Shown piece after piece: positions 7,441 to 57,436 of a DNA stretch of 64,000 nucleotides. Made by a program: the position numbers and the translations under genes. The stretch's first letter is position 1. Each line of letters starts with the position of its first letter. The notes beneath the pieces were generated by a model. It did not search any database and was not told the DNA's origin. It saw only the letters and a list, made by a program, of their open reading frames with translations. Source of the stretch: Heliocybe sulcata (taxonomy: Eukaryota > Basidiomycota > Agaricomycetes > Gloeophyllales > Gloeophyllaceae); the NCBI GenBank assembly GCA_004369045.1, contig ML213515.1, forward strand, positions 588,808-652,807, read 5' to 3'.

Positions 7441-9243
7441 ATGGCCACCCTCGGGCCTGCATTGATCGGGGCGACGATCTCGAGTATGTATGTAGCCAAG
7501 ATCCGACTAGGGCCATGTGATAAGTCGTTGACGCGGTATGGAAGGTTGTATGGGGTGACAACAGCTCAGGTCGTCAAGTATTACACGACCTACGATGATG
7601 GACTGGCAATGAGATGCTTCGTGAGTGACTAAAGTCGAGACTATATAGAGAATATACACTTAGTTTCCAGTAGATAGGTTGTATATGGGCGGTGCGCATT
7701 CTTCAACCCGCCCTGACCAACTGTTTAACCCGATTCCGTCCGCAGATGGACACCTTACAACAGTGCCTTGTCACCCACGTACTCTGGTGGTACCTAGTGG
7801 CCAGATGCTACGGGAATGCGGTGGCATGCGTGGAAGTGGTCTGGTATGATTCGACGATTGAGGTCTTCGCAATGTTAATCTAATCAAACCGTGTTGACAG
7901 GAGCTTATTTGTATGCGAATCTCTCGCATTTTATTCTTCAGTTTTTTCTTGACAATTGTATCCATTTAAAGGCTACAGGTATACCAACGGTGCGTGCCTA
8001 GGCCGACTTGCAGCGGTCGAGAATTTACGTGATGACACCACTTGCAGGAAGTATCCTCATTCATAGTCGAATGGTTCGTAGCCCTCGCAATATATAGTTA
8101 CGACTGACTGACACGTAACTTACAAGCTTCTTCATTTGGCGAATATGGAAGTGTACGGCTATCCGCCTTATGCGCTAATGACATGCTGATGAGATTATTT
8201 CAGTTCAAGGAAGGAAATCCGTTTTCCTACTGGTGAGCATCATCAATCCCGCGATATTCTTGTGGTCCCTAAAGTCCCGCAGGTCATACCAGCAATATTG
8301 GGGCCGTGTAAGTTATGGGTAGATCTGGATCCCTTGTGCTCTGCTGACTTTACCCGTCAATATTGTCAGTACTTTCCCTGAGTAAGCGCTTTGCCCTTCT
8401 TTTCTAATCCACTTTTAACACCGGATATCGCAGTATATCTCATAGACTGGTACGCACGTGCGGCATCTGACGTGGATCACTATTGATGGAGACGGGGCAG
8501 CATACAAGGCGGCGGATTCTTCGCCTTCCGTACGAAGTATGATGTCGCAGAGGCGAGTATCCTTGGATCGCCTACATGCTTCGTGGGCTGACAATAGTAC
8601 AGACTCTGACGTGCCTGAGCGCAAGCTTTTACATATTCACAGACGTCGCGATCACTGCGACGATGTCCTATTGCCTCTACAAATCACAGGAAGGGGGTCT
8701 AGCTGTATCGAAGTAAGCGCATTGCAAGATACGTCGGTATGAGGCTGAAGTCGCCGACCTCTGCGCAGGTGGCTGACAGGCGTTGTCCTGAAGTACACAG
8801 TAACCACAGGCTTGTTATCATGGTAATGTCATCTTCTTTCCGGAGATTACAACGATCTAAGCTTGTATTTTCCAGTATTATACAGGTTATATATTTGATT
8901 ACAGTGCGTGTCCAGGATTCCAGACGTACTTCCAGTGATTGATGGCGCAATTCTAGGTTGTAGCGAGCTGGGCAACGGGTTCTGGGAAGGATATATATAT
9001 TGGTATATACTTCGTGACAGCGAAGGGTGAGTGCCTCACTATCTCTTTAGCCTTGCGACCTCTCGCTGATGCAATGGTAGTGTATATTAATTGCATGCTG
9101 GCGTCGTGAGTCTGCTTACCTAGCTCTGCACATGGCGTATACGTTGGAAACTAACGATCTACTCCCAACTCAGATTAAACAGTCGCCAGTCTCTGCGAGC
9201 ACGTTTAGACCGGGAATTTGTGCGAGAAGTGAATACAATATGA
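7441..9243 (+). CDS. DUF6534 multi-pass membrane protein, 19 exons
   Basis: Reconstructed by hand from splice signals. Exons: 7441-7487, 7545-7620, 7674-7691, 7746-7843, 7901-7910, 7972-7989, 8048-8073, 8127-8152, 8204-8232, 8283-8307, 8370-8381, 8434-8449, 8501-8529, 8598-8712, 8769-8822, 8876-8903, 8957-9026, 9081-9105 and 9174-9243. They sum to 792 bases, an exact multiple of three, giving 263 residues with one terminal stop. The spliced protein shows the family pattern: N-terminal MATLGPALIGATISSMLYGV, then WAMDTLQQCLVTHVLWWYLV, FFIWRIWKF, SFYIFTDVAITATMSYCLYK, KYTVTTGLLS and a C-terminal VYINCMLASLNSRQSLRAR. Seven membrane segments are expected. DUF6534 proteins are abundant in mushrooms and have no known function. 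The least certain junction is the one at 8529/8598. Confidence 0.82.
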
Positions 9244-9519
9244 AGGAACATAGACAGGTTGCCATTGTGCTGGTCGGTGGATGTACTCTAATCGTAATCT
9301 ACGGTTTTATAGTTGGGTAAATACATGCGCAGTAATGTTGTCAACTGCAATGTGGCCACTATGTGACGTTACTACGATGTGACTTGACGCGTCCAATTCG
9401 ACACGGCGCGCGTCTCGCATGCCCTGTTAAGTCACCTGGTGTCGATCCAGTCTGTGCAGCATATCCACTCGCGGAGACGATCCTTGGACTTACTATTCGA
9501 CAACGATTCTTGTTTCGCG

Positions 9520-12516
9520 ATGCCTCAAGCGCCGGAAGCTCACACTCCTCGCCGTTCCAGGCGGTACCAGCCGATACTGACAGCACCCCCAGTACGAGTC
9601 GACTTGGACGAGGACTACACCTATTCCTGGTGCTCGGATCCTGTGCATATACGGACTTCCGAATACGAGGACGCTGGGGAAGAAGAGGGATTGTTCGAAG
9701 ATAAAGCCCAAGCGCAGACTGTGTTCTACGATTCGTTTACGCGACGCCAAGCGCCAGAGGTAGCGAAGACTGCAGGTCGCGGAAGAGCGAGAGGTAAAGG
9801 AAAGGCGAAGGAAGTTGAAGGCCAAGCTGAGACGTTCAGCGTCGGCGACACTGTTCTCATTGCTACGAATGCGAAGAAACCAAGCGTTGGGGTCATTGTT
9901 GCGATGTGGCAAGTACAAGCTGGTGAAGAGGAGGTAGAAAGAGAGGATGATGACGAGCAAGGAGGTGAGGGGAAGATGAAGGTGAAAGTTCACTGGTTTT
10001 TGAGACCTACGGAGCTCGCTGGAGTGCGTGCTAAGAGAGATCATCTTGAGGTGCGTGCCGTGCTACTCGTTGTGCTCCGCTTGCAATCTCACACCAAACC
10101 TTATAGAACGAGATTTACTTCTCTCTATCGTCATGTGGAATCACCACCCCTTCCAAGGTCCTGTCCAAGTGCAATGTCACCAGTCAAGCACCAGAGGATG
10201 CCGAGTCCAAGAGTGCGCTGGCCTGGTCTGCCTCGCCTTCGAAACGCCGCAAGGTCTCTGTCAAGGCAACCTTACGTGTAAACTCTGACGATATCTTCTA
10301 CTGTGGTTCTGCGATCGACGCCCGACGTGGGCTCTACTACATCTTTGACTGGGAAAGGCACAAAGAGGCTGCACTTGCGATTGTTACTGACGATCCTACT
10401 AACACGTCGCATTGGGACGTTGCGGTCGATGATACTGATATTCTGCATGCCAATAACACGTCCACGTCGAAGCGCAATGCTCCTACACGGAGTCGCGGCA
10501 GTCCAAAGAAATGGAACACCAGAGCGGACGTGCCTAGTAAGGCAGACGACGAAGACGTTGTCCCGGAGACTGACCAGGAGTCTGCACGGAATTCTCCCGC
10601 TCCTGCTAACCGGCGTGGTAGACCCAAGAAGCGCAAGGCTAAAACAGACGATTTCGTGGAGAGAGAGGAGTCAGAGAGCGAGGACAATTATCAAGTCGAC
10701 GACGTCAAAGCCGAAAGCGCATCTGAAGAAGAGCATGAAGAGGAGGAGCCTCTGGAAGAAGATCTGCCCAAGACACCGTCCAAGAAGCGGCAACGCACTG
10801 CCCCATCGGCACCTCGTACGCCACGGACGCCCAAAACCCCGAAGCGCAGAGCAGATGCGACCCAGAAACTAGCGGCGCCGACTCCGCACTCCAAGGCTGC
10901 CCTGCGCGCAAGGGCGCGGAGGAAGTCGGCTGTAGCTGTGCGGCCTCCGCCTCCTGAGGCGACCCAATCCCTAGCTACGGCACTGAGGAAGATAGGCAAG
11001 GATCCCTGGCTGCGGGCTATGCACGTTCTGCATGTCGCCTCCCGTCCGGACGAACTAGTTTGCAGGGAAGACGAGTACAAGAAGGTCCTGAGAAGTGTGG
11101 AGGAGTTGGTAGAAGAAGGCAGCGGCGGATGCGTCTGTATGTGTGATTCTTTTCCGCGTGTATGTCATCTCAATATCTTTGCAGATATATCCGGAGTTCC
11201 CGGAACCGGGAAGACCGCTACTGTTCACGCCATTGTGCGGGAGCTCAAACAAATGGCGGAGAGTGGTGTAAGTTCATCGTCAATCCTTCATAGGTCCTTC
11301 TTTAACACATCGGCACAGGAAACGAACCCATTTACCTATGTCGAAATTAATGGCCTGAAAATTCCTGAACCGTCTGCGGCATACGGGCTGCTCTGGGAAG
11401 CAGTCTCTGGCCATGATGTTGCCACTGATGGGCACATGAAAATTAGTTCAAAGGAAGCGCTACGAAATCTGACGCGGTACTTCAACAGTGGCGGGAACTC
11501 TGGTCCAGGCGGACATGCATGGTAAGTTACGGCTGGTTAACTCCTTTCCATGAAACGTTGTCGACGGTATAAATGGCAGCGTGGTACTCATGGACGAGCT
11601 GGACCAGCTGGTGACGACCAAGCAAGACGTTGTGTACAACTTTTTTAATTGGCCCACATTAGTGGGATCCAAGTTGGTCGTTATCGCGGTGGCGAATACT
11701 ATGGATCTACCAGAGCGGGTCATGTCCGGAAGAGTGCGTAGTCGTCTTGGTAAGTGAACGCCATCTCCTTTCGTGCTATGCCTCTGACTTCATAACTTCC
11801 TTTTGTTGCAGGTATGGTTCGGATCAACTTCCAACCCTACACGACCCCGCAGCTGGAGAAGATTGTTCATTCACGACTGCTGACCGCCAAGGAAGGCTTG
11901 ACTGGGAAGGTCCCGGACGTGATAACGGCGGACGGTGTCAAATTCGCTGCCATGAAAGTGTCGAGTATTAGCGGGGACGCCAGACGCGTGTTAGACATCT
12001 GCCGGTGAGCATACCGGATCAAGTAGTGTTACAGAACGTTCTTGAACTCACATATCTTGCTTTAGACGCACTGTAGAGCTCGTGCATCCTCGCCAACGCA
12101 GTGCCCGGACCGACGACGTCAAGGAAGTCATCAAAGTCATGCAGAACAGCCCCACTGCCGCATACCTACGCGACTGCAGCCTGCACGAGCGTCTGCTCCT
12201 CGCCGCGCTGCTGAAATGCATGAGGAACGAGGGGTTTGAGGAGATCAAGTGGGGAGACGTGCAGTACCAGCACATAATCTTTCTCCAGGTGTTCACTTCC
12301 ACCGATGACTCGTCGAGGAAACCCGGTCGGGATGAGCTGGGCCTCGTGTTGGAAAGTTTGCTGGCAACTAGGGTGTTGCTGATGGAGGACGGTGCTGGGG
12401 CTGCGAGGAAGCCGGAGGATGAGAGGAGGTTGGTGCTGAATATGGAGGTCACGGAGGTCGAAAGGGTACTAGGGGATGTCGGCGGCGACAGGTGGAAGAA
12501 CGCATTGAGTGCTTAA
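9520..12516 (+). CDS. ORC1: Origin recognition complex subunit 1
   Basis: Multi-exon gene for the largest ORC subunit, which binds replication origins and, with CDC6, loads the MCM helicase. The N-terminal part carries a BAH domain ([13 protein letters not shown] through YYIFDWERH), then a long acidic/basic linker rich in Pro-Lys and Glu repeats, then the AAA+ ATPase: Walker A GVPGTGKT, Walker [11 protein letters not shown], sensor-1 region [19 protein letters not shown], and sensor-2 [15 protein letters not shown]-terminal winged-helix part ends with RWKNALSA. Introns lie near 10050, 11137, 11268, 11522, 11751 and 12005. The ATG at 9520 ([15 protein letters not shown]) is the first in frame; the frame is open upstream only through non-ATG codons. 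Confidence 0.95.
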
Positions 12517-55655: not shown

Positions 55656-57436
55656 TCATGCGGCAGATGGACCCGCGAACATCACAGGCCATTTCGGTCT
55701 CGGAGTTGACTGTCGCAAACTTTCCTTCGCCATGTTTCTTAGTACATCTCTTGCGTTCAGCCTGGACGTCTACAGGTCAGTATGCTGAAGCAAGTACATT
55801 CAGTACGACGGCTCACCCGGCTAAGAGAGTGTTCACATGCACTGGAGGAGAATATCAGCGCGATGCAGCAGGGGGAGTGGGCGGTACAAACGTCTTCCGT
55901 AAACGTAGTATATCCCGATATAATACAGCTCCGAAGGCTTGGCGATCAGCTGTAAGCAATCAGCGCGGGACTCGTATAGGACCGTTCGAAGTGCCGTCGA
56001 CTTACAGCGGTAAGGTATCCAGCAGTAGCCACACTACCCGAATACCCGCATATTCAGTTTACACGGTAAATACGCAACTGATCCACTCACCTTGTGACCA
56101 ACCCCGTGGCCAACGCAAAGTCGGCGAGGACCGGGACGAACGAGCTGGGAACATCAGTTAACTCGCTCCGCGTAGTTCATTATTGAGAAGAGGTACGTGC
56201 CCCTTCCACATATCCCCAGACTTCATTCGAAGAATGGTGCACATTGCTACTGCGATGCCGATGTCTGTGAGTGCGCGGCATGCTGCTGCTGTTATGGGGA
56301 TCCACTATAGTATATATCAACTCACTGACAGGCATGGTATGGATGGGGAGTACTTACCTGGAGTTTACTGTCGTCATGGAAGGAGGGGAACCTATGACTG
56401 GGGCGCGTCAGGATCCTTTGGCATAACATCTGAGGGTAGGGAGGTTACCATTTCCAGATGTACGCTGCCCGATCATGTTCAGTTTACCAGAAGACTGGAT
56501 TGTTCATCGATGGAAGCTCACCTCCATCGGCGACTTATGGACAAAGCGGTTCAGAAGACAGCTCAATGTCGCAGTATAGAGCCTACCCGTGCCGGCTATG
56601 ATAGGCAGACTCTAAGACGGATAAGCAAAAACACCAGACAAGTCGGGACAGGACGTACGAAGAGGTACGTCCATTTGTTGCGCTCAGACACTGTGCTCAG
56701 CGTTTAATCGTCGTATTGCAGCAGAACAGTTGGTCTCACTGATCCATATTCTTCTGACGAAGACGCTGTGCGACTAGTTAACTATATTGAAAGTGGGTTA
56801 TGTAGCGTCGGACACGCACCATTGCACGATGACGACTGCTATCTCCTATAATGACAAGGTCGAAGGTTATCCGAGTAAGCGAGCACTAGGACGTACAGTA
56901 GGTATAACGTGGAACTGCCTCGATTGTCATTAGCATGAAATATTGTAAGTGATTGCGCTCACTATGACTGCCCTGATGCAGACCCTGGCAGTCAGTGGCT
57001 GATTTAGTACCACGATGGAGGATACGGACCAGTTTGCTGTTGAGAATGAAGACGTATCTCCGCCGCACCGGTATATTAGGTAGTACCATATAGTGTCCGT
57101 CATAAGAAATTGTTGTACTGTATCCATCTTTCAACGATGAGTTCAGCATTATGTATCATGAGAGAGCGCCTTCGCTCACAAGCCAGACGAACACGACCTT
57201 AGTGAGAAATAGTCAGGGCTGCGTCGGGAATAAATGGCATTTAAGCGACAAACCAAACTTGTCATCCCCAGCACGTCGCTGGAATATCTGCGGTAGTAGC
57301 AGATGACCTGCCCGCATGTGGTACCGTACAGTCTGTACAAGAGTGAGCAGGGCTTCATGAAGGGGTGAGGCGCGTAGGTGACTCACACAGTCGATATTAT
57401 AAAGCCTATAAAAACTGGGATGAATAGGAAAGTCAT
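55656..57436 (-). CDS. DUF6534 multi-pass membrane protein, micro-exon gene 2
   Basis: Second member of the family at 7441-9243, reconstructed by hand. It starts MTFLFIPVFIGFIISTVLYG (joined across the first intron), continues GQVICYYRRYSSDVLGM, an 18-base exon VVFVWL, then MDTVQQFLMTDTIWYYLIYR, an 18-base exon FHVIPT, EIAVVIVQC, VFVRRIWI, SERNKWTYLF, a 25-base exon with SLPIIAGT, a 12-base and a 16-base exon, ALTDIGIAVAMCTILRM, VLADFALATGLVT, IAKPSELYYIGIYYVYG, HVNTLLAG and finally LNARDVLRNMAKESL, ending FAGPSAA. Exon lengths and phases mirror gene 1. The junctions after NW and after LRM have more than one solution. Long plus-strand frames at 55646-56161 and 56183-56707 are shadows of it. 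Confidence 0.75.

Follow-up and report, generated by a model that had tools for sequence, protein, structure and literature searches.

The window analysed here, a stretch of 64,000 nt of Heliocybe sulcata DNA, raises a simple question: is a coding sequence divided into 19 exons, the shortest of 10 nt, a genuine gene, and does its layout belong to this gene alone or to a family? The answer that we favour, at a probability of roughly 0.85, is that the gene is intact and saturated with introns, belongs to a family of DUF6534 seven-helix paralogs, and carries an inherited micro-exon array that is spliced by ordinary intron definition.

A protein search with the product of a splicing made by eye returned 11 proteins, eight of them distant DUF6534 proteins and three close: P0001 (269 aa, encoded on a 931-base contig), P0002 (188 aa, from Neolentinus lepideus) and P0003 (215 aa, the public H. 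sulcata protein OE88DRAFT_375339). P0001 and P0002 made up the entire profile of a custom-written spliced profile aligner, whose splice consensus consists of generic fungal strings taken from general knowledge and not derived from the window gene. The resulting splice-aware alignment defined a gene of 19 exons at 7441-9243 on the plus strand, with 810 nt including the stop and 269 aa, and spans all 269 profile positions with no gap. The by-eye splicing itself (807 nt, 268 aa) was discarded, as its exon 8/9, exon 10 and exon 13/14 are contradicted by P0001 and P0002. The gene and its exons, with the evidence for each, are as follows.

7441-9243, +, DUF6534 gene, public protein OE88DRAFT_375339; spliced profile alignment, Pfam PF20152, exact mapping of the public protein
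7441-7487, +, exon 1, 47 nt; spliced alignment; followed by intron 1 (57 nt) with the weak acceptor GAAG
7545-7620, +, exon 2, 76 nt; spliced alignment
7674-7691, +, exon 3, micro-exon of 18 nt (IGCIWA); spliced alignment, masking
7746-7843, +, exon 4, 98 nt; spliced alignment
7901-7910, +, exon 5, micro-exon of 10 nt; alignment, masking, both flanking introns also from the public protein
7972-7989, +, exon 6, micro-exon of 18 nt; alignment, masking, public protein
8048-8073, +, exon 7, 26 nt; alignment, masking, public protein
8127-8152, +, exon 8, 26 nt; alignment, masking, public protein
8204-8232, +, exon 9, 29 nt; alignment, masking
8283-8307, +, exon 10, 25 nt; alignment, masking
8370-8381, +, exon 11, micro-exon of 12 nt; alignment, masking
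8434-8449, +, exon 12, micro-exon of 16 nt; alignment, masking
8501-8552, +, exon 13, 52 nt, followed by a GC-AG intron; alignment, public protein, homologs
8603-8712, +, exon 14, 110 nt, start of the Pfam DUF6534 match; alignment, Pfam, public protein
8769-8822, +, exon 15, 54 nt; alignment
8876-8903, +, exon 16, 28 nt; alignment, masking
8957-9026, +, exon 17, 70 nt; alignment, public protein
9081-9105, +, exon 18, 25 nt; alignment, masking, public protein
9174-9243, +, exon 19, 70 nt including the stop TGA; alignment

The 18 introns have a mean of 55 nt and a range of 50-68 nt, and together their 993 nt outweigh the 810 nt of coding sequence. Intron 13 (8553-8602) has a GC donor. We assigned it as GC-AG because the GT alternative adds three residues that are missing from P0001, P0002 and P0003, and because exon 14 then becomes 110 nt long, matching 8 of the 14 paralogs of group A (defined below). 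The sequence-only reading had proposed this position, strand and number of exons, the exons of 10, 12, 16, 18 and 18 nt between introns of 50-68 nt, the excess of intron over coding sequence and the consistency of the phases, and the spliced alignment upholds all of these; its figures of 792 nt and 263 aa were slightly off.

The 19-exon gene is real. Its alignment scores 654.8 bits and returned the identical 19 exons at five of five intron costs, while the same aligner gave at most 22.9 bits with 60 Markov-simulated copies, at most 22.8 bits with 46 stretches of 2.3 kb from elsewhere in the window (23 on each strand, those of the minus strand stopping short of a second gene at 55.7-57.4 kb) and 16.5 bits with the reverse complement of the gene. 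Eleven exons are no longer than 30 nt, and masking them singly cost between 21 and 61 bits each time. One result speaks against the model: a profile made of group A paralogs alone recovered 16 of the 18 introns but placed introns 12 and 13 differently. That the gene is instead decaying, or that its exons are an artefact of fitting to the family pattern, is hardly credible. Several splice sites do score poorly on the family matrix (the acceptors of introns 1, 5, 7, 12 and 17, and the donor of intron 15), and the public annotation is broken; against this, the phases are consistent and neither a stop nor a frameshift occurs across the 19 exons, no control exceeded 23 bits, and 11 of the introns are matched by P0003, an independently built model. 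Moreover, when the coding sequence of each of the 14 group A loci was joined up from the aligner's own predicted exons and aligned again, it was called as a single exon, so the aligner makes no cuts there when introns are absent.

The public protein also bears on the forecast that frame-based gene finding would miss or break such a gene. OE88DRAFT_375339 maps letter for letter onto the window DNA. As mapped by the aligner, it starts within exon 2 in another frame, retains intron 3, reads exons 3-9 in the wrong frame and does not contain exons 10 and 11, most of exon 12, the end of exon 15 or exon 16; 11 of the 18 introns are present in it with identical ends, including both that surround the 10-nt exon. 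P0002 ends in ..VSK, which is what read-through into intron 14 would produce in the window DNA. The broken P0003 model thus bears out the forecast. It was further expected that no single frame would expose the gene, and the gene is indeed missing from the 22 DUF6534 places returned by a six-frame Pfam search of the genome. P0003, wrong over its N-terminal half, illustrates how members of this family are mis-annotated: counts and alignments of DUF6534 proteins that are drawn from automatic models may miss or distort members, and splice-aware protein alignment would be a helpful route to their re-annotation.

The product of the window gene is a DUF6534 protein. In a Pfam search of the spliced product, which the sequence-only reading had proposed as its check, residues 163-253 match PF20152 with 56.7 bits (cut-off 28.2). 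P0001 is 74% identical to it over 100% of its length, and proteins of Pisolithus and Mycena that carry PF20152 show 24-29% identity over 94-96% of the product. On the homolog P0001, seven helices are predicted, and in the predicted fold these are transmembrane helices in the GPCR arrangement, suggesting that the product of the window gene is a receptor-like protein whose seven helices adopt a GPCR-type fold; in this GPCR-like model the micro-exons encode helices 3 and 4 plus the intervening loop. No Pfam GPCR family matched the product (E up to 1 for the by-eye model, E up to 0.001 for the corrected one), and its identity to the class D GPCR Ste2 (PDB 7ad3) is 10%. In a recent survey of fungi, DUF6534 (PF20152) forms the largest cluster of unclassified seven-helix proteins and is put forward as a GPCR class new to fungi, and a computed prediction of G-protein coupling is given for other DUF6534 proteins (PMC12842992). 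The window product resembles the proteins of that survey in having a domain match over the cut-off, seven predicted helices and an origin in the Agaricomycetes; the survey uses predicted proteins, and the word intron is absent from its main text.

Is the layout an oddity of one gene? The genome was searched in two ways, with Pfam in six frames (the 22 places above) and by protein search (23 places, 8 of them the window gene itself). From these, 34 other loci were taken in and all were compared; as one weak place (C4:1044985) was left out, the 34 are fewer than the whole family. Loci were aligned with a family profile, which in this first pass gave some spurious exons of 1-7 nt, and then with leave-one-out profiles. 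Groups A, B and C were set from the first-round exon series, ahead of any tree. In column and phase, every one of the 14 group A loci agrees with the window gene at 16-18 of its 18 introns, at 30-39% identity, and 8 of them agree at all 18; the 8 group B loci share 10-16 introns at 24-29% identity. Each of the 8 group C loci shares 3, L031 shares 9, and L017, L019 and L021 share none, the micro-exon architecture being absent from group C and from these last three loci in the common alignment. A circular-shift null gave means of 0.1-0.5 shared introns and never more than 4. Down to 24% identity, then, 22 paralogs agree with the window gene in intron position and phase.

One of these paralogs lies in the same window.

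55722-57418, -, second DUF6534 gene (L049), 19-exon series 79, 18, 98, 10, 18, 26, 26, 32, 25, 12, 16 and so on; leave-one-out spliced alignment, the ends being limits of the local alignment and not gene ends

L049 has 18 of 18 introns in common with the first gene at 32% identity, scores 55.5 bits in Pfam and is likewise absent from the six-frame Pfam listing of the genome. A third gene with the same architecture, L038 (C13:585772-587594), is located about 1.2-3 kb upstream of the start of the window; counting L028, L046 and both genes of the window, contig C13 carries five or more group A genes.

Exon lengths follow the same pattern. The window gene has exons of 47, 76, 18, 98, 10, 18, 26, 26, 29, 25, 12, 16, 52, 110, 54, 28, 70, 25 and 67 nt plus the stop; the series that recurs in group A is 18, 98, 10, 18, 26, 26, 29, 25, 12, 16, then about 110, 54, 28, 58, 25, and that of group B is 14, 99, 10, 18, 26, 26, 32-41, 25, 12, 16. 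Lengths within the array are nearly constant among paralogs, the exceptions being missing introns and exon 9, which varies in steps of three. The 10-nt exon is kept in 21 of the 22 group A and B loci; masking it cost at least 10 bits in 18 of 21 cases, and this support was lower for the exons of 12 nt (13/19) and 16 nt (14/18).

The impression of a one-off gene is contradicted by these results: the architecture is common to at least 22 paralogs, and since L022, L023 and L050 were called with 21, 22 and 20 exons, the window gene does not even hold the record. Cuts that are common to many diverged sister genes make the layout an inherited family trait. A burst of intron gain in the window gene alone, like that of the horizontally acquired alpha-amylase of basidiomycetes, is accordingly very improbable, given the positions and phases held in common by 22 paralogs and the many differences that are exact exon fusions (below). 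Massive gain in a single basidiomycete gene does have a published precedent, with 8-22 introns per alpha-amylase gene where basidiomycete genomes have means of 3.8-5.7 (PMC3584928), and a burst that preceded the split of the paralogs would fit the shared positions and the fusions alike. The two cases are alike in being very intron-rich, with short introns and exons; they differ in that the alpha-amylase gene was transferred horizontally and then gained introns, whereas the oldest state of the DUF6534 genes would already have been intron-rich, with much loss afterwards.

How would a 10-nt exon be spliced? The sequence-only reading considered such an exon demanding for intron definition. A study with worm and mouse data places the difficulty elsewhere: short introns are by default handled by intron definition, and it is exon definition for which micro-exons are too small (PMC8378409). 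We compared, across groups A, B and C (30 loci, with L017, L019, L021 and L031 left out), the 192 introns that lie beside exons of 18 nt or less with the 110 that have no neighbour of 30 nt or less. Neither intron length (p = 0.75) nor donor strength (p = 0.29) differed, acceptors beside micro-exons were slightly weaker (p = 0.009), and the CTRAY branch motif was present in 89 of 192 and 51 of 110 introns, respectively. Hence no stronger splice signals were found next to the micro-exons in this comparison, which fits a mechanism that recognises every short intron as a whole. With no compensating signals, and with the difficulty placed in exon definition by PMC8378409, the view that the exon burdens intron definition appears to be the wrong way round, except for the likely sequential removal of introns. 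Each intron of 50-68 nt would be recognised as a unit through its own 5' site, branch point and AG, in which case the size of the exon matters little; neighbouring introns would probably be excised one after another, because two spliceosomes cannot occupy a 10-nt exon together. GC donors were seen in 11 of the 467 introns called in groups A, B and C, despite the penalty that the aligner imposes on them.

A different proposal is that the array is kept for a function, with regulated skipping or intron retention tuning the receptor repertoire or feeding nonsense-mediated decay. We regard this as unlikely. The intron positions are very stable, the frame survives the skipping of exon 3, 6, 11 or 15 and is lost with each of the remaining 13 internal ones, and P0003 corresponds to skipped exons plus the retained intron 3; in Phanerochaete, two splice variants are described for a gene of the micro-exon-rich P450 family (PMC1184071). 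Yet the micro-exons are flanked by no special splice signals, several paralogs have dispensed with one or more introns of the array with the reading frame intact, and P0003 may be a mere wrong prediction. For the inherited array under ordinary intron definition, the 22 paralogs with the same intron positions around exons of 10, 12, 16 and 18 nt amount to a clean natural test of micro-exon splicing, and the exact single-intron fusions in some of them are built-in comparisons.

Earlier work on basidiomycetes had already described micro-exons flanked by short introns (PMC1184071, PMC2897884). The P450 genes of Phanerochaete chrysosporium are alike in having micro-exons down to 6 bp, frequent introns of 45-55 bp and a large superfamily, with intron number and position conserved in 10 of 16 tandem clusters; however, the P450 micro-exons are scattered over many families, whereas in DUF6534 eight successive exons of 10-29 nt recur in diverged paralogs at unchanged positions (PMC1184071). 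For Laccaria bicolor, dense introns and frequent exons for fewer than 10 amino acids are said to hamper gene models, a general statement with no family-wide array described in the available text (PMC2897884). Among the matches listed in the literature searched, we found no recognisable description of the conserved DUF6534 array.

To place the array in time, an IQ-TREE tree was built from 55 proteins, 20 of which were chosen from those found in searches (14 of these from 120 matches listed). Groups A and C each lie on one side of a branch, that of group A with 100/100, and group B does not. L050, of group B, joins 14 chosen proteins from other fungi with 100/100, which we take to represent Hymenochaetales, Corticiales, Boletales, Russulales, Polyporales, Agaricales and other orders. 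L050 has 16 of the 18 introns in common with the window gene, so that, if introns were not gained twice, the array is older than the point at which group A and the L050 lineage parted. On this tree, that split would precede the divergence of the species from which the 14 proteins come; the date can only be inferred, because the forks that separate the subfamilies are weak, the tree is midpoint-rooted, long branches lead to five of its rows and the gene structures are those of one species, H. sulcata. The array (10, 18, 26, 26, about 29, 25, 12 and 16 nt) would thus have been present in the common ancestor of the subfamilies. A more far-reaching version, in which the array is older than the main mushroom orders and has been retained as a functional splicing unit throughout the large receptor-like family, with hundreds of DUF6534 annotations possibly mis-modelled and expression possibly gated by splicing, seems to us doubtful.

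Later change would have been largely precise intron loss. Exact fusions are seen of 26+26 to 52 nt in L018, L024 and L029, of 35+25 to 60 in L018 and L020, of 12+16 to 28 and of 43+101 to 144 in L024, and of 10+18+26 to 54 in L040; by arithmetic, the 238-nt exon of L018 would fit 49+101+60+28. Joint loss of adjacent introns is a prediction of loss through reverse-transcribed mRNA. A few additional introns are called in L050, L022 and L023. An introner-type origin was rejected: among the 467 introns of the 30 loci, 59 of 108,811 pairs share at least four 8-mers, slightly above the 22-44 of 20 Markov simulations, with no repeat family seen and a largest sharing of eight 8-mers. The introns of the window gene share at most two 8-mers with one another and at most four with paralog introns.

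Other members of the family provided further observations. In L050 (C11:115900-120000), the exon that normally measures 60 nt is divided by an extra intron into pieces of 47 and 13 nt, and proteins similar to L050 at 49-70% identity are found across many further genera of mushrooms. P0014, a public protein of H. sulcata, fits L050 with exons of 14, 10, 12 and 16 nt and has a six-residue insertion that is absent from our L050 model; a profile from 16 other L050 orthologs gave the same exon series, without the P0014 insertion. The Neolentinus protein P0012 fits the entire series of L047, with 14 residues missing near its start. Group C (L025, L026, L030 and L032-L036) has a different intron set, in which 11-nt exons were called at five of the eight loci, four of these also having exons of 12 and 14 nt. 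Searches for RNA families gave zero matches within the window at gathering thresholds. The next gene downstream of the first window gene (9388-11525, +) has an N-terminal BAH match of 28.0 bits, under the Pfam cut-off of 30.8, and a P-loop-like stretch, and presumably resembles the replication-origin protein ORC1.
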